Positions 30,674-41,756 of a stretch of 64,000 nucleotides of DNA are shown here, piece by piece. The translations under genes were made by a program, and so were the position numbers. Every line of letters starts with the position of its first letter. Within the stretch, counting starts at the first letter, position 1. This stretch comes from Acidocella sp. (GTDB taxonomy: Bacteria; Pseudomonadota; Alphaproteobacteria; Acetobacterales; Acetobacteraceae), in assembly GCA_031291755.1 (NCBI GenBank), contig JARLIK010000028.1, forward strand, positions 1-64,000. Reading direction: 5' to 3'. The notes beneath the pieces were generated by a model. That model had not been told where the DNA came from and did not search any database. It worked only from the letters and a program-made list of their open reading frames with translations.

Positions 30674-31142
30674 AAGCACCGGCCCATAAAAAGCCGCCCA
30701 GACCGTTGCGATGCTTGAGGCTGATCACGAGTTGGCGCCAAGGAGCGGCCACGCGGCATAGTGGATGATAGACGGTCTACTGGTCGAGGAGAGCTATACC
30801 TGCAGCTAAACAATTGTGTCGGATGCAGCTTAAGAGATGTTGCGTTCACGTAGGACGTTCGTGCCATTGTGTCACCAGTCCGGCCACGCCCTGGTGGATT
30901 TTGGCGATGCAGACGGGTACGGTGGCTATTAGCCGGAAAGGAGTAAATTAAGCTGGTACTGTGCCCCCGCTTTGAACCTTCAAGGCTGAGTGCTTCATGG
31001 TGAATTCAGTAAAATCAATAGCTTCCACTGCCCAGTTTCATCACCTGTGGCACGCCAGCGCCGTCAATTCATTGATATTGCTTGATAATTTTGGTGTTGT
31101 CCCGCATATGCGTCATTGTCTTGTGTCATAGCGGGAAGCCAA
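30674..31142. other. Gene-free stretch before the integrase fragment
   Basis: No supported ORF on either strand; the overlapping frames contain no recognisable domain. Sequence texture changes here, with lower GC and broken frames, marking the boundary between the iron-type locus and the island-like block. No terminator with a convincing T-run was seen. Confidence 0.45.
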
Positions 31143-31457
31143 ATGCCGGGTTGTTCTTTTGTCGAAAGGCGGGGTAACCGGTACTATTTCCGGATGCGAA
31201 TTCCGCTCGATTTTGTGGTTGTTACTGAGCAAACGCACGTCGCCGCCGCACTTGGTATGGCCGATCAGCGCATCGCTAAAATTAAATCTAAGATTTTTTT
31301 GTTGCTTACTAAGTTTCTGGGGACAATGCGTCTCAAGATGGCAAACCCACTCAACATCGGTGGCCATAATGACTACCGCCGTTTGGAAATGCTGGTGGCG
31401 TCAATCAAGCCGCAAACCAGCCGGTTCAGTGGTACTCTTTGCCGTCATTACTCATAG
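31143..31457 (+). pseudogene. N-terminal fragment of a phage-type integrase (DUF6538 domain)
   Basis: The 104-codon reading frame starts MPGCSFVERRGNRYYFRMRI and continues PLDF, a good match to the N-terminal DUF6538 domain that begins many alphaproteobacterial tyrosine recombinases, followed by a diverged HVAAALGMADQRIAKIKSK helix. After about residue 65 the match is lost, and there is no core-binding or catalytic domain with R-H-R-Y residues. It is best read as a decayed integrase start left at the edge of an island. Confidence 0.6.
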
Positions 31458-31682: not shown

Positions 31683-32051
31683 TTGATTTTCAATCTTATC
31701 ATTCCAAAGCTAAATGAATATATGAAGTCGGCTCGCATTGAAGCTCTTTATGTTACAATAGGCGAACAATTATTGTCAGGTAGTAAGGTTTTGGACATGA
31801 GCGTCGATCTTTCGAACGTCTTTGCGCAGAATTGTCCGCCTATTTCTTATCATCGCGTGGTATTGCGGGAAAAACTTTGGGTACGAAAACTTCTGATACA
31901 ACCTGGGTCTTATTGTAATCCAGATGATTGCATCGCGTTGTTGAGCAGTGAGCCGACGGAGGCTTTGGATCAGGCCATCGCCCGTCCGGCCCGGATCATG
32001 GTTGCGGGGATCGTTTATCATCCTGAAATGTGGTCGGGGTCTCACGCTTGA
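31683..32051 (+). CDS. Lipoyl-like domain protein lacking the lipoyl lysine
   Basis: The 122-residue protein starts at TTG 31683 (TAGGAA upstream). The middle (about 18-90) aligns by eye with the lipoyl/biotinyl hammerhead fold of the 101-residue protein at 33388-33693: VTIGEQLLSGSKVLDMSVDLS against the WHGGIGTPFNTGDMVVELETHK region, then a G-x-Y turn and IALLSS. At the position of the modified lysine it has Leu (SVDLS in place of ETHKA), so it should not be lipoylated. Its TGA overlaps the TTG of the next gene. Fold assignment is inference from this alignment only. Confidence 0.5.
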   Translation: MIFNLIIPKLNEYMKSARIEALYVTIGEQLLSGSKVLDMSVDLSNVFAQNCPPISYHRVVLREKLWVRKLLIQPGSYCNPDDCIALLSSEPTEALDQAIARPARIMVAGIVYHPEMWSGSHA

Positions 32052-33382
32052 GCGAAATTCCACTTATCTTAGGCACCCTTCCGGTACCCGGACATGTTGT
32101 CAAAAAATCCGGTATCTATTGGCTTTATCCAGATAATTATTTATGCCGCAAAAATCAGGTGGTCGGCTTTTGCAACATCAGCCTGGAGTCTATGCCGGGC
32201 AACGCAGTGGCTCAGCCGCCTTTTGCGGGTGAAGCCGATCTGCAGGTCGCTTTCGCCGCACCGGTGGATGGCCGTTTGCGTATTGATCATGAGACGTCCT
32301 TTGGCGGCTACTTGAATTTTCTAGGGTCCCAACTTTGGGACTCGCGCACGGTTATCGCTTACCTGACACCTTCAGAAGCCATTCCTGGCCTGATGCCCGC
32401 AAATCTGATGGAGATGAATCTCCTGATGCTGGCTGGAAAATTAATGACCGGTCTCGCAAATTACGGAACCTCGATGCTCCCAGGCTGGCATAGCCAAGTG
32501 CGCGCCTGGTGGAAGGGCCCGGCGAAGCTGACAAAGACTCTCCTGACACTTGGGATTTGCGATGCGCAAGGACCGGTGCTTGGCGATCAGGGGGCGTTCC
32601 TGGAATTTTTCGAAGACGCTGACTTTCCATGCCATCTCGTAAATGTCCAAAATGAGCTTATGGTGCCCTGCGCACAATGCCTGATCGAGCAGTTTTTCCG
32701 TACCGAGGATGATTTCAATTCTATCGCCGACGATATCAGGCAGCATATTTTTCACGGCATGGTTAAACCAACAGTCGAGGATTATTTTTTTGCGGGCTGC
32801 CTGTTAACGGCGCTGCAAGATTCGCCTGTGCGGCGCAGCTACGATATTGTCGTTGATGGTGGCTATCAAAGAAGTCCGGCGCCATCGTATATTTTGCTGT
32901 CCTCTCATGCTGAGCCATTGCAGATTTTGCGTCATAAAAAGCTTGGCTATCACCTTCGGATTTACCAGTTCCGCATCGAACAGATGGGGGCCGCCAGCCG
33001 GGCTTGGCTGAATCAGGCATTTGAAATAATCCCACGCACGATTGCTGATATCAAATCCGATTACATCCGGCTTTTCAGCGCTTTCCGTTCGCATACCAAG
33101 GCGCAATTCATCATCCTGAATCAGATGTCGACATCGGGACGCGAGGATTTGGCATTTTACACGCCGTTTGATGCACCCATGGGCAATATCCTTGTGCATG
33201 TTGCGGCCAAGGAAATGAATCTGATGCTCGACGAACTGCAAGAGCAAGCCGGTATCTCGGTGATTGATGTCGATGCGATTGCAGCCGAGTTGGGTGGCGG
33301 GCATCATTTGCCTGACGGTATTCACCAGAGCGGCGTCATGCAGAAGCGCATACGCACGGAACTTTTAAAACTTATGTACTAG
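32048..33382 (+). CDS. SGNH-like hydrolase/acyltransferase protein
   Basis: The 444-residue protein starts at TTG 32048, overlapping the previous stop (TTGA). The N-terminal part is not recognised. The C-terminal part (about 330-444) looks like the end of an SGNH/GDSL domain: a strand KAQFIILNQM, the SVIDVDAI strand shared with the two neighbouring SGNH-like proteins, and PDGIHQS giving the D-x-x-H motif of block V. The start lacks a clear ribosome site, consistent with coupling. It converges, 5 bp apart, with the lipoyl domain gene. Its function is probably ester or acyl handling in the same pathway. Confidence 0.6.
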   Translation: MSEIPLILGTLPVPGHVVKKSGIYWLYPDNYLCRKNQVVGFCNISLESMPGNAVAQPPFAGEADLQVAFAAPVDGRLRIDHETSFGGYLNFLGSQLWDSRTVIAYLTPSEAIPGLMPANLMEMNLLMLAGKLMTGLANYGTSMLPGWHSQVRAWWKGPAKLTKTLLTLGICDAQGPVLGDQGAFLEFFEDADFPCHLVNVQNELMVPCAQCLIEQFFRTEDDFNSIADDIRQHIFHGMVKPTVEDYFFAGCLLTALQDSPVRRSYDIVVDGGYQRSPAPSYILLSSHAEPLQILRHKKLGYHLRIYQFRIEQMGAASRAWLNQAFEIIPRTIADIKSDYIRLFSAFRSHTKAQFIILNQMSTSGREDLAFYTPFDAPMGNILVHVAAKEMNLMLDELQEQAGISVIDVDAIAAELGGGHHLPDGIHQSGVMQKRIRTELLKLMY

Positions 33383-33387
33383 ATGAA

Positions 33388-33693
33388 TTATGCGATTTCA
33401 AACTCTACTAGCATATCTGCCGTAGCTTCGGTCTGCTCCGGCAGAGTTTCATCCAATGAGTCGCTGCAAAGACCGAGCGGCACACCGATCTTGCACCATG
33501 CGCCGTCAGGAACGCTTATAACGCGCAAAATTCCGGCTTGCCCAGCCCGCATTTCGATAATCGCCTTATGGGTTTCCAACTCGACAACCATGTCACCCGT
33601 ATTGAACGGCGTGCCGATGCCGCCATGCCATTCCAGAACGCGGAATTCCTCGATGTCCTCGGCAATGGCTGGCACCGATAATTTATAGATCAT
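33388..33693 (-). CDS. Free-standing lipoyl domain protein
   Basis: The 101-residue protein has one lipoyl domain of the E2 type (IYKLSVPAIAEDI, then GDMVVELETHKAIIEM with lysine K43, then AGILRVISVPDGAWCKIGVPLG). There is no peripheral-subunit-binding or catalytic acyltransferase domain, so it is a mobile acyl carrier on its own. GAGG precedes the ATG. It is the last gene of a leftward operon, 18 bp after the E1 beta gene, and is thus the expected acceptor of the acyl group from that E1. Confidence 0.82.
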   Translation of the reverse strand: MIYKLSVPAIAEDIEEFRVLEWHGGIGTPFNTGDMVVELETHKAIIEMRAGQAGILRVISVPDGAWCKIGVPLGLCSDSLDETLPEQTEATADMLVEFEIA

Positions 33694-33711
33694 CCAACAA
33701 ACCTCATTTGA

Positions 33712-34725
33712 TTACGGGTGCAAACATTCCGGATTTGTTGCGTTTATAAAGAATTTTATCTCGTCCACAAGGCGCTGTGCGTTGGGGATGCAGGCGGCCT
33801 CCAGCACCGGGTTTGACGATACCGGAGCCGGCAGTGCGCCGACGCGATGCACGCGCACCGGCCCCAGCCGCCGCTGTACCTGCGCTGCAACTTCGCTTCC
33901 CACGCCGCATGTTACCTGGCCTTCTTCCAGCGTGAGGAGGTTTTTCGTCCGCGCCACCGATTGCGCCACCAGTGCAGCATCCAACGGAATCAGACTGCGT
34001 AAATCTATAACCTCGCAGGATATTCCTTCATTTATTAAAAGATCAGCGGCTTGGTGAGCGACGCGGGTCATGTAGGAATATGTGGCAATTGTGATATCGC
34101 TGCCGGCCCGGATTATTTTAGCGGTGCCAATCGGGGTTCTGTACCGCGCCACCGGCACGTCACCAGGAACCGGAAAGAGTTTTTTATGGTCAACAAAAAT
34201 CACCGGCCCGGGGTCTTCGAGCGCGGCAACCATAAGGCCGTAGGCATCGGCCGGATTGGACGGGCAAACCAGCTTCAAACCAGGCACACCCATCAGCCAA
34301 GATTCAATGCATTGCGAATGTGCAACCCCCTGTCCTTTGGCACCGGCGGTGGTTTTAATAACAATCGGCGCGTGCAACTGGCCGCCGGTTTTGTAACTTA
34401 ACTTCGCGGCGTAATTCACCAACGGGTCAAGGCCCAGCATCAAGAAATCCATATAGGTAATGCTGACCACCGGCCGCAGACCCGCCGCCGCGGCACCCAC
34501 CCCGATGCCGATCATCGCTGCTTCGGCGACCGGCGTGTCGCGTACCCGTGCCGGGCCAAAGGCCGCGAACAGCCCGTCAAATTCACGGTAGGCACCGCCA
34601 AACGCACCAACATCCTGGCCCATGACAAATACCCGCGGGTCGTCAGCCATTGTCTCCCGCAATGCCCGGACGATCGCCTCCCGGTAGAAAAGCCGCTGGT
34701 GTGTGGGAGGCATTTCAGAAGACAT
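33712..34725 (-). CDS. TPP-dependent 2-oxoacid/acetoin-type dehydrogenase E1, beta subunit
   Basis: The 337-residue transketolase-like pyrimidine-binding and C-terminal subunit has FYREAIVRALRETM, VFVMGQDVGAFGGAYR (TPP-activating Glu region), DTPVAEAAMIGIGVGAA and VIDLRSLIPLD. The start at 34725 overlaps the alpha gene by 11 bp; a second ATG at 34713 is possible. With the alpha subunit it makes the heterotetrameric E1 that decarboxylates a 2-oxoacid or cleaves acetoin and transfers the acyl group to lipoyl. The natural substrate is unknown. Confidence 0.88.
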   Translation of the reverse strand: MSSEMPPTHQRLFYREAIVRALRETMADDPRVFVMGQDVGAFGGAYREFDGLFAAFGPARVRDTPVAEAAMIGIGVGAAAAGLRPVVSITYMDFLMLGLDPLVNYAAKLSYKTGGQLHAPIVIKTTAGAKGQGVAHSQCIESWLMGVPGLKLVCPSNPADAYGLMVAALEDPGPVIFVDHKKLFPVPGDVPVARYRTPIGTAKIIRAGSDITIATYSYMTRVAHQAADLLINEGISCEVIDLRSLIPLDAALVAQSVARTKNLLTLEEGQVTCGVGSEVAAQVQRRLGPVRVHRVGALPAPVSSNPVLEAACIPNAQRLVDEIKFFINATNPECLHP

Positions 34726-35641
34726 CAGATAAAGCTTCAGCCGCGTCGGGAAAGGGGCTGGCGTCGGCAAAGTTCAATGCTGCCGCAACTTTATCGGAAA
34801 CATCCGAATCCATCGTGGCAAGCGCCTCATGATTTATCTGCCCCGTCGTCAATAGTGCTGCTGTCAAATCCATGATCGGACAAGCCAAGCGCAACCGCTG
34901 CAACTCATCGCGCGATCGCGTCTCGCGTGCTGCCGTGGAATGCGCTGCAAACCGGCAGGAGGTGAATTCGAGAAACGCCGGGCCAGCACCAGAGCGAATG
35001 GCCTGAACCGCATTCGCAACGGCTTCGGCCACGATATCCACCTGCATCCCATCAAATGTTCGCGCCGTTATTCCGTACGCCAGTGCCAAATCGGAAATCA
35101 TTTTGGGAGCCAAAACGGCCTGACGGGGCGTTGAGACTGAGAGCTGATTATTGTTGCAGATAAATAAGACCGGCAGACGCCACAATGCGGCGATGTTCAA
35201 GGTCTCATGCAGAATGCCTGCGCCGCTCGCGCCGTCACCGAACACCACCACCGCAATACCAGGGTCGCCCGTCATCAGCCGCGCCAGCGCTACACCCGCG
35301 GCGATGCTGATATTGCCTGCCACCACCGCATGGGCACCAAAAAACCCCTGCGCTGGTGCGCTCAAATGCCCGCGCCCGCCCTTGCCTCGATTGGTTCCGG
35401 TTGACTTGCCAAGCAACTCAGCCATCACCTCTGCCGGGGTCAGGCCGCGTGCCAAGGCAAAGCCGATGGAGCGCCCGCCTGTTAATAACTGATCCTGCGG
35501 TGCCAGCGCCGCGCAAACACCCACGGCGACGGCCTCCTCGCCCGCAGACAGCAATTGAAACCCATGGTCGGGGTGCGCCGCCAGGGCGTTTTCAAACGCC
35601 CGGATCAACTTCATGCTGTACAGCATTTCGTGGCGCGTCAT
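34715..35641 (-). CDS. TPP-dependent 2-oxoacid/acetoin-type dehydrogenase E1, alpha subunit
   Basis: The 308-residue protein carries the thiamine-diphosphate motif GDG (135-137) to NNN (163-165) within FGDGASGAGILHETLNIA, plus the conserved start LIRAFE and NRGKGGRGHL. Its ATG overlaps the stop of the SGNH-like gene (ATGA). It is coupled to the beta gene and followed by the lipoyl carrier, but no E2 catalytic or E3 (dihydrolipoyl dehydrogenase) gene is present in the window. The complex probably supplies an acyl or ketol unit to biosynthesis rather than central catabolism. Confidence 0.88.
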   Translation of the reverse strand: MTRHEMLYSMKLIRAFENALAAHPDHGFQLLSAGEEAVAVGVCAALAPQDQLLTGGRSIGFALARGLTPAEVMAELLGKSTGTNRGKGGRGHLSAPAQGFFGAHAVVAGNISIAAGVALARLMTGDPGIAVVVFGDGASGAGILHETLNIAALWRLPVLFICNNNQLSVSTPRQAVLAPKMISDLALAYGITARTFDGMQVDIVAEAVANAVQAIRSGAGPAFLEFTSCRFAAHSTAARETRSRDELQRLRLACPIMDLTAALLTTGQINHEALATMDSDVSDKVAAALNFADASPFPDAAEALSDVF

Positions 35642-36345
35642 TTCATCACGATCTGGCTGAGTCCGCCGGCGGTTACCCTATATCCAAAATTGCCAATGAT
35701 GTCGGGCTTATGCCGGCTGACCGGCACTTGCGGCGGGAGAAATGTTTTTACGAGACGCCGCGCGGCCTCTTGCAACTCAAACGGCACCAGATCGTCCAAA
35801 CCAACCAGCAGCATGGTCATGGCCAGGGATTTTCCGGCGGCCTGCGACGCGTAAGGGCCTTGCAGCCGATAGTCGGTTTGTAAATTCCGGGCACCAATAT
35901 CAGCGAGATCACGGTCAATATCGGCGACCAGCACGCCCATCTCGCGTGATAGATTCAAGGCCAGCAAGTTCAACCGGCGAATCCGCGTCAACCGCGCTGG
36001 CGCCGAAGGCAAATCCGGCTGCACGTAACGCAGCAGCGTGCCAATATACACCGCACGTTCCGGGTGGGCGGTTAATTCCTGGTATCTTAGCCGCAAGCGC
36101 GCTTCACAATCCGGCCAGGGTTCTTCGACGCGCCCAACTTCGTCGATGAGCGAGGTGATGACAATCGATGGTCCCGGCGATTGATCGAGGCCGGCGGGTG
36201 CGGCGGGGAACGCATATTCGAGAGTCCACGGCACCTTGTCCACCAAGGTAAGACCGCGTGCCAGCAATTCGACGGCGTTGCAGACCGCGGCCCGCTCATC
36301 GGGCGTCACCAAAGCCTGCACCTTGAATCGGTTAAATTCGGCCAT
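35638..36345 (-). CDS. SGNH-like protein with eroded active site
   Basis: The 235-residue protein has an end region SREMGVLVADIDRDLADIG that aligns with the ISVIDVD strand of the two other SGNH-like proteins in the cluster. It continues QTDYRLQGPYA where D-x-x-H is expected, so the catalytic histidine seems lost. It is coupled at both ends (TGATG with the glycosyltransferase, ATGA with E1 alpha). I assign only distant SGNH kinship. A binding or scaffolding role is as likely as catalysis. Confidence 0.5.
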   Translation of the reverse strand: MAEFNRFKVQALVTPDERAAVCNAVELLARGLTLVDKVPWTLEYAFPAAPAGLDQSPGPSIVITSLIDEVGRVEEPWPDCEARLRLRYQELTAHPERAVYIGTLLRYVQPDLPSAPARLTRIRRLNLLALNLSREMGVLVADIDRDLADIGARNLQTDYRLQGPYASQAAGKSLAMTMLLVGLDDLVPFELQEAARRLVKTFLPPQVPVSRHKPDIIGNFGYRVTAGGLSQIVMK

Positions 36346-37373
36346 CAGCTAGCGTCTGCCATGATATGGAATTGCAAATGCGCATTGCGGATCGCCTCAA
36401 TCCCATAAATGCCCGCGCAACGAAGCGCCGCCGCCTCAAGGGCAGGCAGCGATTCAATCCTCGCTGCCACCGGCAACTGCGGCGGTTGTGCCAGGCTGCG
36501 CCACAGCACCGCTAACAGCGCCACCGCCGCTATGGGGTGCTTTTGGTAAAATATCTGCTCCCAGCCGGCTTCAACCAGCGGGTCGCGCCAGCCCGCCCGG
36601 TGGGTCATGTGGAAGCTGCATGCGCCCGCCAGTGGCAGCATTCGCCCACCCGCCTGGCAGAGACGCAGCGCCAGCTCACGATGTTCATTGATGGTCAGCG
36701 CCCTATCAAAGCCGCCTGTAGCGCGGAAAATGGCCGTGGTGACCGATAAATTGGCCCCCGCTGCCGCTGCCCATAATACATTGCAACCGGGATGATTTTG
36801 TAACGCATCCATTTCAAGCTCATAAAGTTTCCTGGGGCCGGTGCCGGGATAAATCCCCTCCAACGAGCGCGCCAGAATCCCATCAAAATTATGCAGAATA
36901 TCGGCCTGTGTGATCCGCATCCGGGCCAGCTCATACGGCGGCAGCCGGGCGATCCGCGACGCTTCGCCCGGCATCGGCAAACCGGTCTCGGGGTCCGCCA
37001 GATAGCGTGTGCAACGCAAATGGCGGGTTTCGCCACGAATAATCGCATCCGTGTGCTGCCGGTGGCATTGTAAATGACGTTCAACCAGATCCGGTGCCGC
37101 CAGCGTATCGCCATCGAGAAAAATCAGCACGTCCCCGCTGGCCCGCGCCGCCCCGGCATTGGAAGCGGCGGACCGGCCCTGCGCCTGGCCATGCTCCACA
37201 TAAATCACCGGGCAAGGCAATGGTGCGGCAGCCACCACCGCTGCCGTATGGTCGCGTGAACCATCATTCACCACGATAATTTCCGCTGGCACGGTCTGGC
37301 GCGCCAGCGATGCCAGCGTCAGCCGCAGCCGGCCGGCTTCATCTTTGGAGCGGATGACAACGCTGGCCTGCAT
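36345..37373 (-). CDS. Family 2 glycosyltransferase
   Basis: The 342-residue protein has a GT-A fold: ASVVIRSKDEAGRLRLTLAS at the start, VVNDGSRDHT, FLDGD as the metal-binding DxD-type motif, and ATGGFDRAL after the acceptor region. ATG 37373 is chosen because AGGA, overlapping the stop of the preceding SGNH gene, is well spaced; the frame is open to 37403. No transmembrane helix is obvious, so it is cytoplasmic or peripheral. It lies inside the E1/lipoyl operon and suggests that the product is a sugar conjugate or surface glycan. Confidence 0.85.
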   Translation of the reverse strand: MQASVVIRSKDEAGRLRLTLASLARQTVPAEIIVVNDGSRDHTAAVVAAAPLPCPVIYVEHGQAQGRSAASNAGAARASGDVLIFLDGDTLAAPDLVERHLQCHRQHTDAIIRGETRHLRCTRYLADPETGLPMPGEASRIARLPPYELARMRITQADILHNFDGILARSLEGIYPGTGPRKLYELEMDALQNHPGCNVLWAAAAGANLSVTTAIFRATGGFDRALTINEHRELALRLCQAGGRMLPLAGACSFHMTHRAGWRDPLVEAGWEQIFYQKHPIAAVALLAVLWRSLAQPPQLPVAARIESLPALEAAALRCAGIYGIEAIRNAHLQFHIMADAS

Positions 37374-37383
37374 GTCCGCGTTC

Positions 37384-38169
37384 CTAAGGCCCAATGAGTC
37401 CAAGATCGTCCAGCACCCTTACCACCTCCCGTGCCACCAGCTCATGGGCTTCAGGCGTTATATGAAGCGCATTCAGCTTCATCCTGTCCACACCCGAGCG
37501 GGCCAGCAGGCCATCAACATCGATCACCGATATGCCCGTTTTTTCCGATAATTCAGCCAGCCCGAGCGTGAACCGCCGTGCCCTGGTGGTAAAAGTCTCG
37601 CCGAGCCCCTGCAAACAATGCACGGTTTCGCCGGGGATGGTTACCGAAACATTGTAAATCAGAATCGGCGCGTCCGTGCGGCTTCGTATCCGGCCGATGA
37701 TTTGTTCAAAATTTGCCATTGATTGCTCAGCCGTCAGCAGCCCGGCGGGTTCGTAATGCGCCGCGAGCCAATTCCGGTGCTCGGGCTCCTGTGCCATCAT
37801 TTCGTAAGGATAAAAAAATTGCCCGGTGGCGCGATGGCGCAGGAGTTGGGTGGCCATATCCGGCTGGATGGTTAAAATTATGGCGTCCGCTGGGGTCTCG
37901 AACAGCGCCTGGCTGAATTGGCTGGCGAGCGAGAATGGCCCCAGCTTGAAGGAGCGGGCCGCAAGTTCAGCGTCAATCACGCCATCCGCTGTCAGCAAAG
38001 CGTCCGAGCGAGTCCATGTCTCGTGCTTGATGCGGGCCAGCGTGCCGGGATGATGCTGGCGCAGCACTTCATTAATCCCGTTCCAGCGCAGCGTGCCCCC
38101 GATCATGCAGGAATGCAGGGAATCGTGCACATCGACATTGCCCTTGACGAACAAATTAAGGCGTCTCAC
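37384..38169 (-). CDS. SGNH/GDSL-like hydrolase, first gene of the E1-lipoyl operon
   Basis: The 261-residue protein has an N-terminal block NLFVKGNVDVHDSLHSCMIGG that occupies the place of the GDS motif (GNVD/HDS). Later come an ILIYNVS strand, the shared ISVIDVDGLL strand and NALHITPEAH, where block V D-x-x-H reads N-x-x-H. It opens a leftward operon of six genes (SGNH, GT2, SGNH-like, E1 alpha, E1 beta, lipoyl) and diverges from a transglutaminase-like gene. It may act as an acyl-transferase or esterase in that pathway. Confidence 0.65.
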   Translation of the reverse strand: MRRLNLFVKGNVDVHDSLHSCMIGGTLRWNGINEVLRQHHPGTLARIKHETWTRSDALLTADGVIDAELAARSFKLGPFSLASQFSQALFETPADAIILTIQPDMATQLLRHRATGQFFYPYEMMAQEPEHRNWLAAHYEPAGLLTAEQSMANFEQIIGRIRSRTDAPILIYNVSVTIPGETVHCLQGLGETFTTRARRFTLGLAELSEKTGISVIDVDGLLARSGVDRMKLNALHITPEAHELVAREVVRVLDDLGLIGP

Positions 38170-38240
38170 GGCAGCGCCGCCCCGGATCGCAGCAAGTATT
38201 GGGTCAATCTATTGCCTGCCTTCAGAATTGGAATAGAATC

Positions 38241-38254
38241 TTGACGAGTGTCAA
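38241..38254. promoter_or_regulatory. FNR/CRP-type palindrome in divergent promoter
   Basis: TTGAC-GAGT-GTCAA is a perfect 5+4+5 palindrome that also fits TTGA-N6-TCAA, the pattern bound by FNR/FixK regulators. It sits between the divergent SGNH operon (start 38169) and the transglutaminase-like gene (start 38294). The left TTGACG could instead be a -35 box. Confidence 0.45.
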
Positions 38255-38293
38255 AGAGTTAAATGGATTTCCGCCGAAAGACAAACAGGCCGT

Positions 38294-39574
38294 ATGACCC
38301 GTGTAAAAATCTGGCCGCATGTGAACGAGCGCTACCGCAGCATCCCGCAAGCGCGTATTTTGGATATGCTGCTGCTCTTGGGCTGGGCGTTCGAGGTGGC
38401 TGCAGGCGCCCGCGCGGCCGCCGAATTGCAATGCGCCGAAGCGCTTGAAAGCCTGATTGGGGCGGGCCTCGGATATTGCGCGAGGGCGAATGGTGAGCGT
38501 TGCTTTGACCCGGCGGAAGTGCTCAATTTCGTCAAGGCGGAAGGTCTGGCGGGGCGCAGCCATATCTGGACGGATCATTTCATCCCCACCGCCCGTGCCC
38601 AGTATCAAAGCCTCGCCGCGTTAACCGGGGGCAACACGCAGCTGCGGGCTCATGTCAGGTTCAGCCGCATCTTCAGCCTGCACGGCATAGCCACCGGCAG
38701 CCGGTTGCGGCTCACCTTGCCGGTGCCGATCACTTGTTCCTATGGGCGCGGCTGCAAAGTCAGCTGGGACCCGATGCCATACCCTGCCACGCAAGGCGTG
38801 CTGCGCGACACTTGCCTCGATATTCGTATCGCTGCCGCGCCGCCCCCGCCGGTCACGCTGGCCGCAGAGTTTAATTTCACTGCATTGACCGGTCCCGATC
38901 AGCAACGCCCGACGCCGGATGAACTGGCTTTATATTTGCGGCACGCCGAGGGTTTGATCCGTGTGACGCCGCGCATCCAAAGCCTGGCCACCGCCCTTGC
39001 TGGCGATACGACCAGCCCGCACAACGCTGCCACCAAATTCTTTGACTTCATGCTGGAACATTTGATGATGGGCATGATCCGCTACAGCGATATTCCGGCT
39101 GACGACCCTGGCGGCTGGATGCTCGACCATGGCTGGTGTGACTGCCTGCTCGGTTCTGCTGTTTTCGTAGCACTTTGCCGGGCACATGGAATTCCAGCGC
39201 GGCTCCTCGGCGGATATTTTTTATACCCGCTAGCGCCTACAAATCATTACTGGGCGGAAATCTGGATCGACGGCGCCGGCTGGCTGGCGTTTGACCTGCT
39301 GACCTGGGACCTTTCCGCGGCGGGGCGTGATGCAGCCTGGCGGCATGTTTTCGCCGGGCGATGTGATGCCCGCATGGTGACGCAAATTTTTCCTGCACAC
39401 TTCACCGGGCCGATGACGGCGCAACTGCCGCCCACCTGGCATTTACTGCAACGCCGCCTTGGCAATGGTATGGTCTGCAGTTTTCATGACGCCGTGGACG
39501 GATCGTTGATCTATGAAGATCAGATTGAATGCGTTCATCTTAACGCGGTTCCGCAGGATGACAGTATCACATGA
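38294..39574 (+). CDS. Transglutaminase-like superfamily protein
   Basis: The 426-residue protein has an N-terminal region (1-180) that is not recognised. The C-terminal transglutaminase-core domain (about 245-345) shows the papain-like triad: C284 in GWCDCLLGSAVFVALCRA, H318 in NHYWAEIW and D334 in LAFDLLTWD, with the usual GIPARLLGGY between. Bacterial members are mostly cysteine proteases or amide-forming enzymes. It diverges from the E1-lipoyl operon and was once followed by a glycosyltransferase and a GMC oxidoreductase, both now pseudogenes. It is cytoplasmic, with no signal peptide. Confidence 0.8.
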   Translation: MTRVKIWPHVNERYRSIPQARILDMLLLLGWAFEVAAGARAAAELQCAEALESLIGAGLGYCARANGERCFDPAEVLNFVKAEGLAGRSHIWTDHFIPTARAQYQSLAALTGGNTQLRAHVRFSRIFSLHGIATGSRLRLTLPVPITCSYGRGCKVSWDPMPYPATQGVLRDTCLDIRIAAAPPPPVTLAAEFNFTALTGPDQQRPTPDELALYLRHAEGLIRVTPRIQSLATALAGDTTSPHNAATKFFDFMLEHLMMGMIRYSDIPADDPGGWMLDHGWCDCLLGSAVFVALCRAHGIPARLLGGYFLYPLAPTNHYWAEIWIDGAGWLAFDLLTWDLSAAGRDAAWRHVFAGRCDARMVTQIFPAHFTGPMTAQLPPTWHLLQRRLGNGMVCSFHDAVDGSLIYEDQIECVHLNAVPQDDSIT

Positions 39575-39603
39575 ACCGAAGTACAGAGGCAGCGTCTGGC
39601 ATG

Positions 39604-40125
39604 TATGATCACATACTGATTAGTTGCCTGATGGTGACCTCGGCCCGCGCCGAGCGTTTTGGTTTTATCCAAAAAAGCGTGGCGGCCTATTTGGCTCACT
39701 CAATCGTAGCGATATCAAAATCATTCAACCAGCGGGATGTCTTAATCTCGGGCAACTGCGTAACATTGCCCGTGAAGCCGCCTCCGGCGAGGTGACGTGT
39801 CAATGGGATGATGACGATCTCTATCATCCGCTGCGGCTATCCACGCAGTTGCGAGCCTTGATGGAAGGCGCTTACGAGGCCACGGTATTACAAGATGTCA
39901 TGCAATATAAGCCGGATGCTTGCGCGATGTACTTGACAAACTGGCACGCCACACCTTGCGGTGCGCATCCGGGAACTTTGATGGCAATGCGTAATGTACC
40001 GCTCAGCTAGCCAACCAGCGGCGCTACCGTCAGCAAAGGTGAAGACATGGGGGCTTTGATGTGGCTGCGGCAGCGCAACCTCATCAAAACCATCGATGCC
40101 ATGCCGCATCTTTTCGTCTATATCG
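39604..40125 (+). pseudogene. Family 2-type glycosyltransferase, frameshifted and fused to a GMC remnant
   Basis: Pieces of one glycosyltransferase lie in different frames. HILISCLMVTSARAERFGF and SVAAYLAHS are in the first frame (from the ATG at 39604). CLNLGQLRNIAREAASG, CQWDDDDLYHPLRLSTQL and GAHPGTLMAMR follow in the next, ending at a stop at 40010. A C-terminal tail (GALMWLRQRNLIKTIDAMPHLFVYI) lies in a third frame. QWDDDDLYH is the DxD region. At about 40120-40125 the tail runs directly into the dinucleotide motif of a GMC oxidoreductase, so a deletion joined the two. Confidence 0.75.
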
Positions 40126-40830
40126 TCGGGTCCGGCGTGGTGGGCGGGCTAGTGGCTGACGAGTTGGCGAGGGCCGGATTGTCGGTGATTGTCCTGGAAG
40201 CAGGTCCGTTCGTTGCACGCCGCGCGATTGTTGAACCATACCGCAATAGCCCGATAAAAGACGATTTTGAATTAACTTGCCCGCCCAGTCCGCTGGCGCC
40301 GCACCCTCAATACAACCCGCCAAATCATTATCCCACACTCAGCGGCCCCGACGCTGGTGCTTATGCGCAACAATATATTCGTTATGTTATCGGTACAACA
40401 TAGCATTGGGCCGGTTGCGCTTGGCGCAATTTGCCCAACGACTTCAAACTTTTCAGCACCTATGGTGTCGGGCGTGATTATCCGCTCTCCTACGCTGATC
40501 TGGAGCCGTATTATGCCCAGGCCGAAATTGCCCTCGGGGTTTCCGGGCCGCAATATCCAGCCTTGCAGTCGCCGCCACAAAATCCCGAAAACCAGCTGAC
40601 GCTCAACCCGGGCAGCAAGGATGCTCTCGGCATACCCTGCCCGCAAATCTATTACGATGTCGGCGATTATACCAGGCGCGCCGGCCAGCGCACCTGTGCT
40701 GTTTTCCGGCAACTGGCCGCTGCCATGGGCGCTGACCCTGGAGACTCGGTCGTGGATGGAGAGTGCCTGACCGCCACCATCTTCATTATAAAAAACCCCT
40801 CTGAAAGCATGCCGCAAATTTCTGATGGGA
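40126..40830 (+). pseudogene. GMC-family oxidoreductase, missing N-terminus, nonsense codon and internal deletion
   Basis: It begins mid-domain with VGSGVVGGLVADELARAG and VLEAGP (FAD-binding GxGxxG) and continues to YIRYVIGTT. There TAG (40401-40403) replaces the Trp codon of the TTWHWAG motif. The same frame then continues HWAGCAW and NDFKLFSTYGVGRDYPLSYADLEPYY. After LTLNPGSKDALGIP it jumps to a C-terminal block (IYYDVGDYTRRA... GDSVVDGE), so the substrate domain is deleted. Related intact enzymes are sugar or alcohol dehydrogenases. It lies beside the transglutaminase-like gene and was probably part of that cluster. Confidence 0.8.
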
Positions 40831-40844
40831 TTACCATGGGAGTG

Positions 40845-41756
40845 CTATGTCAGCGTCGATCCATATTCCAGGATAAGAGTCTCAACGGCCTGACGCTCCG
40901 GCATGCCGCGCCAGCCGCCGCCGTTACGCGCCTTGAGAGCGGCGGCGGCAGTGGCAAATCGCGCTGCTTCAAGCGGCTGCTTGCCTTCCGCCAGCGCCAG
41001 CGCCACTGCGCCATGAAACACATCGCCGCAACCGGTGGTATCACGCGCCAGCACATGCGGCGTTGGCACGTTATGCGCTTGCCCATCAACGAGCCACAAA
41101 CTCCCAGCAGCCCCCAGCGTCACCGCGACACACCGCGCTTGTGGCGCCGATACCCGCTTGAGCCCGCCCAGCGGATCATCCTCACCGGTGCAAAGCTTTA
41201 GGCCAGAATTTGAAAAAATGGGGTACTGCGCCAGCGCTACCAGTTGACGCAGCGCATCAGGATCACCCCCTTCAGCATCCAGTACACGCGGAATTTCGCG
41301 CGGCGCCGCGGCGAGCAAGGCCGCCGCCAAATTGGGAAACCGATGGTCGACCAGCAGTGCGTCAGCTTTCGCGAAAGCCAATTCCATCGCCACGGGTGCT
41401 GGCTTCACTGTGCCACGGTCCACAATCAGGCAGCGCGCCCCATCCGGCGCCACCAGCGCACAGGCATTCGGCGTGCGCGCGTTTGTAATTTGCTGCAATA
41501 AATCAAGCTCAACGCCAAGCCCGCTCATCTCGGCGGCCAACCAGCGGCCCGCGGTATCGTCACCCACCGCGCCCATATAAGCAGCATGCCCGCCCAACTT
41601 GGCCACTGCCACAGCGGCGGTGCCGGCAACGCCGCCGCCGCTTTCGCGGTAGCCGGAGGCGGTATATTTTGCATCCCCTTCCGGCAGTGTCTCGACCTCA
41701 TAAATCCGGTCGAGCACGACGATACCGAAGCAGAGAACTCGCTTCAAACCGGGCAA
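40845..41756 (-). CDS. PfkB-family sugar kinase, sulfofructose kinase (YihV)-like
   Basis: The 303-residue ribokinase-family enzyme has ESGGGVAGTAAVAVAKLG (38-55) for sugar binding and DTTGCGDVFHGA (239-250) with catalytic D245. The N-terminus VLCFGIVVLDRIYEVETLPEGDAKYTASGYRE and the C-terminal ALKARNGGGWRGMP closely recall E. coli YihV, which phosphorylates 6-deoxy-6-sulfofructose; this is a memory comparison, not a search. The TTG start at 41756 overlaps the end of the dehydrogenase gene by 13 bp. It is the last gene of the leftward aldolase-dehydrogenase-kinase operon. Alternatively it is a kinase for another ketose. Confidence 0.8.
   Translation of the reverse strand: MPGLKRVLCFGIVVLDRIYEVETLPEGDAKYTASGYRESGGGVAGTAAVAVAKLGGHAAYMGAVGDDTAGRWLAAEMSGLGVELDLLQQITNARTPNACALVAPDGARCLIVDRGTVKPAPVAMELAFAKADALLVDHRFPNLAAALLAAAPREIPRVLDAEGGDPDALRQLVALAQYPIFSNSGLKLCTGEDDPLGGLKRVSAPQARCVAVTLGAAGSLWLVDGQAHNVPTPHVLARDTTGCGDVFHGAVALALAEGKQPLEAARFATAAAALKARNGGGWRGMPERQAVETLILEYGSTLT

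Follow-up and report, generated by a model that had tools for sequence, protein, structure and literature searches.

The locus described here raises the question of what a 2-oxoacid dehydrogenase E1 enzyme does in the company of a free-standing lipoyl carrier, SGNH-type proteins, a glycosyltransferase and a transglutaminase-like protein. It lies at positions 31,683 to 39,574 of a 64,000-nucleotide stretch of DNA from Acidocella sp. (contig JARLIK010000028.1), which was analysed as a whole and is referred to as the window. The nine genes of the locus form a conserved, co-inherited cassette, and we propose, at a probability of roughly 0.4, that it is a self-contained unit for the lipoyl-based acylation of a glycan or glycoconjugate. 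All nine open reading frames (ORFs) were confirmed at the following positions, given with strand, product and length in amino acids (aa):

38294..39574, plus strand: transglutaminase-like protein, 426 aa, divergent from the operon; Pfam Transglut_core 9.4e-15; Cys284-His318-Asp334
37384..38169, minus strand: SGNH-fold protein A, 261 aa; GDS serine position not occupied by serine; N233 (most relatives have D there), H236
36345..37403, minus strand: GT2-family glycosyltransferase, 352 aa; Pfam Glycos_transf_2 1e-22
35638..36345, minus strand: SGNH-like protein B, 235 aa; a paralogue without block I motif and without block V histidine
34715..35641, minus strand: E1 alpha of a 2-oxoacid dehydrogenase, 308 aa; Pfam E1_dh 1.7e-57; thiamine pyrophosphate (TPP) motif GDG and NN, as well as HS, kept
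33712..34725, minus strand: E1 beta of a 2-oxoacid dehydrogenase, 337 aa from ATG; Pfam Transket_pyr and Transketolase_C
33388..33693, minus strand: free-standing lipoyl protein, 101 aa, with ETHK43A; Pfam Biotin_lipoyl 1.7e-09
32030..33382, plus strand: SGNH protein C, 450 aa; N-terminal beta-rich part, SGNH domain at about 166-450; Cys177 and D429xxH432
31683..32051, plus strand: lipoyl-like protein, 122 aa; no lipoyl lysine; invariant Cys51

The Pfam cut-offs were exceeded for E1_dh, Transket_pyr, Transketolase_C, Biotin_lipoyl, Glycos_transf_2 and Transglut_core. An initial annotation of this DNA had described a tightly coupled six-gene leftward operon, which is confirmed by gaps of -20, -1, -4, -11 and +18 bases when E1 beta is counted from the ATG at 34725. 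This is probably the true start, rather than the TTG at 34770 where the ORF opens, because the upstream extension contains a stop in two other copies (L035 and L038). The divergent transglutaminase-like gene, separated from the operon by 124 bases, likewise has the intact Cys-His-Asp triad ascribed to it. The lipoyl-like/SGNH-C pair is convergent with the operon as described, across a 5-base gap, but its 122-aa member has no lipoyl lysine.

The grouping of these genes exceeds chance. Among 249 Acetobacteraceae genomes, protein A was matched in ten, one match (G239) being partial and weak (E 6.7e-4) and left out of the cassette count. E1 beta at E 1e-90 and the transglutaminase profile at E 1e-40 were found in nine genomes each, and the strong matches of all three proteins fall in the identical nine. 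A coincidence of two independent nine-member subsets of 249 has a probability of about 1e-16, kinship ignored; three of the nine genomes share a genus. Co-occurrence, which the initial annotation had proposed as a check, was thus observed, and it extends to whole loci: all nine genes were matched in 17 of the 32 tabulated stretches, window included. Among these 17, the GT2 match is split over two frames in L019 and weaker (42%) in L040, and L020 shows the L034 locus a second time. Eight genes each were found in L031, L034 and L037, where the end of the fetched stretch sets the limit; two stretches of a single genome (L023 and L024) jointly hold all nine, and two of another (L025 and L026) jointly hold eight. 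With the exception of L044, the remaining incomplete stretches are contigs of less than 7 kb.

The cassette is not confined to the Acetobacteraceae. A non-exhaustive scan of 84,980 species with the protein A alignment, via a single peptide pattern, returned 26 loci, including the complete genome of Gluconacetobacter diazotrophicus PA1 5 (L036) and an Acidocella metagenome-assembled genome (MAG) at 84% identity. Other loci come from MAGs labelled by their depositors as Hyphomicrobiales, Caulobacteraceae, Sphingomonadaceae, Burkholderiales, Nevskia and Ca. Eremiobacterota. Searches with E1 beta only, at E 1e-85, gave matches in two of 385 genomes of the class and one of 398 of the phylum, with the host among the matches in both; the cut-offs for E1 beta (1e-85 and 1e-90) were set after housekeeping E1 beta proteins had been seen at about 1e-72. 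The sole new genome from these searches (G887) carries all nine genes arranged as in the window, and therefore this type of E1 was not seen without the cassette in these samples. Across all three samples (249, 385 and 398 genomes), protein A accompanies every cassette-type E1 beta, defined by an E value below 1e-85 or 1e-90; in the 398 phylum genomes it was matched in the host, besides four weak partial matches. That the nine genes constitute a conserved, co-inherited cassette is secure.

Residues G135, D136, G137, N164, N165, H234 and S235 of E1 alpha and residues E83 and H151 of E1 beta are kept in all 23 aligned rows. The cassette E1 beta is distinct from the housekeeping E1 beta of the host's relatives: it shares 43% identity with the E1 beta of the host's pyruvate dehydrogenase (PDH), and a tree of 42 rows has a branch, supported at 100/99, that separates the 24 cassette copies from the rest. 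The other 18 rows are the host and its relatives only, L070 sits on a very long branch, and 11 of the 39 inner branches were drawn open.

The lipoyl domain does stand alone, as had been noted, in a separate protein whose K43 is invariant in 22 of 22 rows (ETHKA in 20, ETYKA in two), and its gene adjoins that of E1 beta wherever a locus holds both. The 122-aa protein is related to this family by profile comparison (hhalign, 97.4% probability, E 9.4e-12), and NCBIfam gave a weak E2-lipoyl match only (E 0.006). In its family (V/I/L)DL stands in for the lysine motif, so that it is not lipoylatable on the usual lysine; its Cys51 is invariant in 18 of 18 rows.

The statement of the initial annotation that the window holds neither E2 nor E3 was corroborated: with the host's own proteins as queries (tblastn, E 1e-4), no E2 core and no E3 was found there or in 36 fetched stretches, which amount to 477,510 bases, include six second copies (30 distinct) and many short pieces, and leave out L102. 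Synteny with a normal E2/E3 pair, which had been named as a sign of an ordinary dehydrogenase complex, was accordingly seen in none of the 36. Control loci were matched in this search, and otherwise only the E2 lipoyl part hit the 101-aa gene in L030 and L024. Elsewhere, the host encodes two E2 cores, one of them beside the PDH E1 beta, two E3 proteins over cut-off, LipA beside the PDH genes, and a LplA/LipB-family gene.

Candidates for the missing transferase are found among the SGNH-type proteins. Pfam scores of A and B were below cut-off and Pfam was blank for C; the SGNH fold was recognised in the predicted structures of A and C, with PatB among the structure matches, and B is tied to both by profile alone, not by predicted structure. 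Structural likeness was judged from the families listed by VIA-align, where a single structural row (2wab) spans model residues 59-450 of protein C and thereby its N-terminal beta part. Profile comparison linked A with C at 99.5%, A with B at 97.7% (hhalign E 1.6e-12) and B with C at 93.1% probability. Protein C keeps G175, C177, N364, D429 and H432 in 18 of 18 rows; at the GDS position, read from the alignment and the location in the predicted fold, all carry Cys177 rather than a nucleophilic Ser, and the block V DxxH motif (D429, H432) is kept throughout (blocks being named as is usual for the SGNH family). Position 176 varies among I, V, S and L, so that Ser176 is not a shared nucleophile of protein C. 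The GDS serine position of protein A is occupied by L, V, H, N or T, without Ser in any of 27 covering rows; H236 is present in 28 of 28 rows, and position 233 is D in 26 of 28. Protein B has neither the block I motif nor the block V histidine in an alignment of 24 rows. From alignment and model, only protein C among the three retains a plausible nucleophile, the invariant Cys177. The SGNH-type acyltransferase of the initial annotation thus holds as regards the fold of A and C, whereas a nucleophile at the GDS position is found only in C, and there as Cys.

In the transglutaminase-like protein, C284, H318 and D334 are invariant in all 21 aligned rows. Its family profile reaches PDB 6g49 (1.6e-08) and 3isr with the core only, and Pfam is blank for the N-terminal half. 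The gene is duplicated in tandem in two Burkholderiales MAGs (L048 16686-19208 and L049 16577-19187). The DGS, DGD and HR positions of the GT2 enzyme are kept in 24 or 25 of 25 rows.

From these parts a route can be proposed. E1 alpha/beta would decarboxylate a 2-oxo acid and reductively acylate the K43-bound lipoyl group of the 101-aa protein, after lipoylation enzymes of the host had charged this protein with lipoate. An SGNH-fold protein would replace the missing E2, most likely through a thioester exchange that moves the acyl group to Cys177 of protein C; docking or acceptor binding could be the part played by the lysine-less lipoyl-like protein and by the nucleophile-poor SGNH proteins A and B. 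A product to which the GT2 enzyme adds a sugar would then receive the acyl group on a hydroxyl or an amino function, the transglutaminase-like enzyme would make or trim an amide bond, and the dihydrolipoyl group would be reoxidised by the housekeeping E3 of the host. We infer this chemistry from what was computed, namely the conservation of the set, the kept active sites, the finding of no E2/E3 alongside, and the presence of E3, LipA and LplA/LipB in the host.

The genomic surroundings point to a glycan in part of the loci. Four Gluconacetobacter copies (L031, L034, L036 and L037) are flanked by exopolysaccharide genes: a WbaP-type initiating transferase in L034 (over the NCBIfam cut-off), with relatives in L031 and L037; a protein of the chain-length/tyrosine-kinase kind in L034 (below cut-offs), with relatives in L031, L036, L037 and also L035; and a Wzx-like flippase in L036, with a relative in L031. 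Glycosyltransferases are found there too, as is an AT3 acyltransferase in L031. Glycosyltransferase genes also occur in the fetched flanks of L022, L030, L035, L040, L041, L050 and L053, and the L050 copy adjoins a TPR-GT41 gene. The surface glycan product suggested by the initial annotation is thus backed by the Gluconacetobacter copies, but not by the neighbourhoods in Nevskia, Burkholderiales and the window. A tenth cassette member was sought and rejected: no flanking family occurs in more than five of 19 mapped loci, the widest being families of Gluconacetobacter and relatives.

A UbiA-HAD protein is encoded in or beside the cassette in L031 (15374-18913), L034, L037 and L022 (3467-7033), the L022 copy being over the cut-off of NCBIfam NF006088. 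An uncharacterised 588-aa protein is encoded with it, and L022 and L031 add a small EamA/SMR-like protein. This gene group looks like a polyprenyl-phosphate sugar route.

Several results weigh against the proposed acylation. L044, a Novosphingobium MAG of 9,847 bases, contains protein A, E1 alpha, E1 beta, lipoyl, lipoyl-like and GT2 genes but lacks orthologues of SGNH-B, of SGNH-C and of the transglutaminase typical of the cassette, which makes it a truly reduced cassette (an unrelated DUF2126/transglutaminase gene lies downstream). SGNH-C may therefore not be the essential transferase; since L044 keeps protein A, the latter is an alternative, which could act through its Asp/His pair with no covalent intermediate. 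Protein A, however, is without a nucleophile, and the window copy has N233 in place of the prevailing D. Foldseek with protein C gave no match at E 0.001. Among the flanking proteins, which were scanned in part, no glycosyltransferase or exopolysaccharide genes were found in Nevskia (Complex I genes) and Burkholderiales (ABC transport, PhaC), nor were exopolysaccharide genes among those looked at around the cassette in the window. In principle, a housekeeping E2 might also serve the cassette E1.

The best surviving alternative is a small-molecule route, in which the acyl group from E1 and lipoyl protein would end up on a glycosylated natural product that is free rather than part of a polymer, and the transglutaminase-like enzyme would serve as an amide synthase that uses the lipoyl thioester. 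Transglutaminase-fold enzymes can form amides from carrier thioesters, and the triad is intact here; no exporter or polymerase travels along in the mapped loci, several copies lie outside polysaccharide loci, and the nine proteins contain few hydrophobic stretches (by hydropathy only, not by a signal-peptide predictor). The same 19 loci, however, show no travelling adenylation, polyketide synthase or non-ribosomal peptide synthetase gene, and the Gluconacetobacter copies adjoin exopolysaccharide genes. We consider this route unlikely, though still a serious competitor.

Much less probable is a direct carboligation, by which E1 alpha/beta would add a carbon unit to a sugar, yielding a branched sugar, with the lipoyl protein as an accessory. 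E1-like enzymes of orthosomycin clusters are such sugar carboligases, and both the kept TPP-site residues and the GT2 partner would suit this role; yet carboligation needs no lipoyl group, whose lysine is invariant here and whose gene adjoins E1 beta. To a similar degree improbable is a post-translational system that would attach acyl groups or sugars to a protein and whose transglutaminase-like enzyme would modify protein side chains. The transglutaminase core and the TPR-GT41 neighbour in L050 would agree with it, but no target protein gene travels along among ORFs of at least 80 aa, short peptides not having been looked for. An ordinary alternative 2-oxoacid dehydrogenase, whose E1 and lipoyl protein use the housekeeping E2 and E3 encoded elsewhere in the host beside unrelated neighbours, is the poorest explanation, as the nine genes co-occur across orders, the E1 beta is far from housekeeping ones with no E2 found alongside, and no genome in the three samples has the cassette-type E1 beta without protein A. 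A phage-defence reading was also tried and rejected, none of the nine proteins matching PADLOC models at E 0.001.

The scattering of taxa in the E1 beta tree, where Acetobacteraceae cassettes fall in more than one place and many branches are weak, indicates that the cassette was probably spread by horizontal transfer. Recent transfer could not be read from base composition: in the window the cassette has 57.1% GC against 57.2 and 57.8 in the flanks, and in nine other loci it lies 0 to 4.3 points above the rest. A plasmid-borne cassette was likewise rejected, as a plasmid collection yielded one protein A record, from Planktothrix, with a weak match for protein C there (E 2e-3), and no match for the transglutaminase (L041 query, limit 1e-8) or GT2 (limit 1e-30).

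This Planktothrix agardhii plasmid, p3 (L083 11961-16976), encodes two proteins related to protein A, which score 140 and 111 bits with the family profile and carry fusions to a methyltransferase and to TPR repeats. Between them lies a 140-aa protein, for which both lipoyl families give 27-28 bits and Biotin_lipoyl a hit below cut-off (E 0.003). Acyl carrier protein (ACP), AMP-binding, FAD and sulfotransferase genes are located nearby, the AMP-binding and FAD genes being short. The arrangement hints that an SGNH/lipoyl-like pair can use another acyl source.

In the window, the cassette is bordered at 39571-40010 by a broken relative of a GT2-like gene that adjoins the transglutaminase gene in L030 (4851-5708, Pfam Glycos_transf_2) and has another relative in L043. 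Fragments at 40047-41201 resemble a decayed FAD-dependent oxidoreductase, presumably GMC-like, with weak Pfam matches at the start only. A DUF6538 fragment (Pfam 2.4e-07) at 31116-31457, just outside the cassette, is possibly a trace of insertion, DUF6538 being a domain known from integrases. A serine recombinase (Resolvase, Recombinase, Zn_ribbon_recom) is encoded at 409-1782.

Overall, the interpretation of the initial annotation is partly supported. Its remark that no described pathway has this gene set agrees with our literature search, which gave no paper on the nine genes, subscription literature being mostly outside its reach. The parts belong to known families; the combination, in which E1 is joined by a free lipoyl protein but not by an E2 within a conserved, biosynthetic-looking cassette, matches no system found. 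We tentatively suggest a new carrier-based glycoconjugate acylation, in which E1 and a free lipoyl protein would replace acyl-coenzyme A (CoA) or ACP, an SGNH cysteine enzyme would replace E2, and the nine genes would form a mobile unit that has reached several orders of Pseudomonadota. The known role of lipoyl-bound acyl groups is that of intermediates in central metabolism; their diversion to glycosylated products would, if true, be a new way of acyl activation for biosynthesis. The invariant-cysteine SGNH-fold protein is open to direct study, and a named bacterium is available for testing the question, since the complete genome of G. diazotrophicus PA1 5 carries a copy.

Compared with known systems, the transglutaminase-like protein resembles the enzymes of PDB 6g49 and 3isr in its Cys-His-Asp core, where the match ends. 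With PatB-type SGNH glycan O-acetyltransferases (PMC9487903), the cassette shares the SGNH fold and, likely, acyl transfer to glycans; unlike them, it has Cys for Ser in protein C and no Ser in protein A, the presumed donor is a lipoyl protein, and its nine genes include neither an MBOAT nor an AT3 gene. WcbI, a putative polysaccharide acetyltransferase, is described (PMC4104973) with Cys14 and a histidine beside a thioester ligand, a partner thought necessary, and a mostly helical, partly new fold that binds CoA. Its likeness to protein C lies in the cysteine and histidine, by description only, and its mostly helical, CoA-binding fold sets it apart. Closest in chemistry are the PDH and branched-chain 2-oxoacid dehydrogenase complexes, with which the cassette shares the TPP and catalytic residues of E1 alpha/beta and an invariant lipoyl lysine. 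Unlike in these complexes, the lipoyl domain is a separate protein of 101 aa with no E2 core or E3 in the fetched stretches, and the E1 is accompanied by SGNH and GT2 genes and nearly always by a transglutaminase gene.

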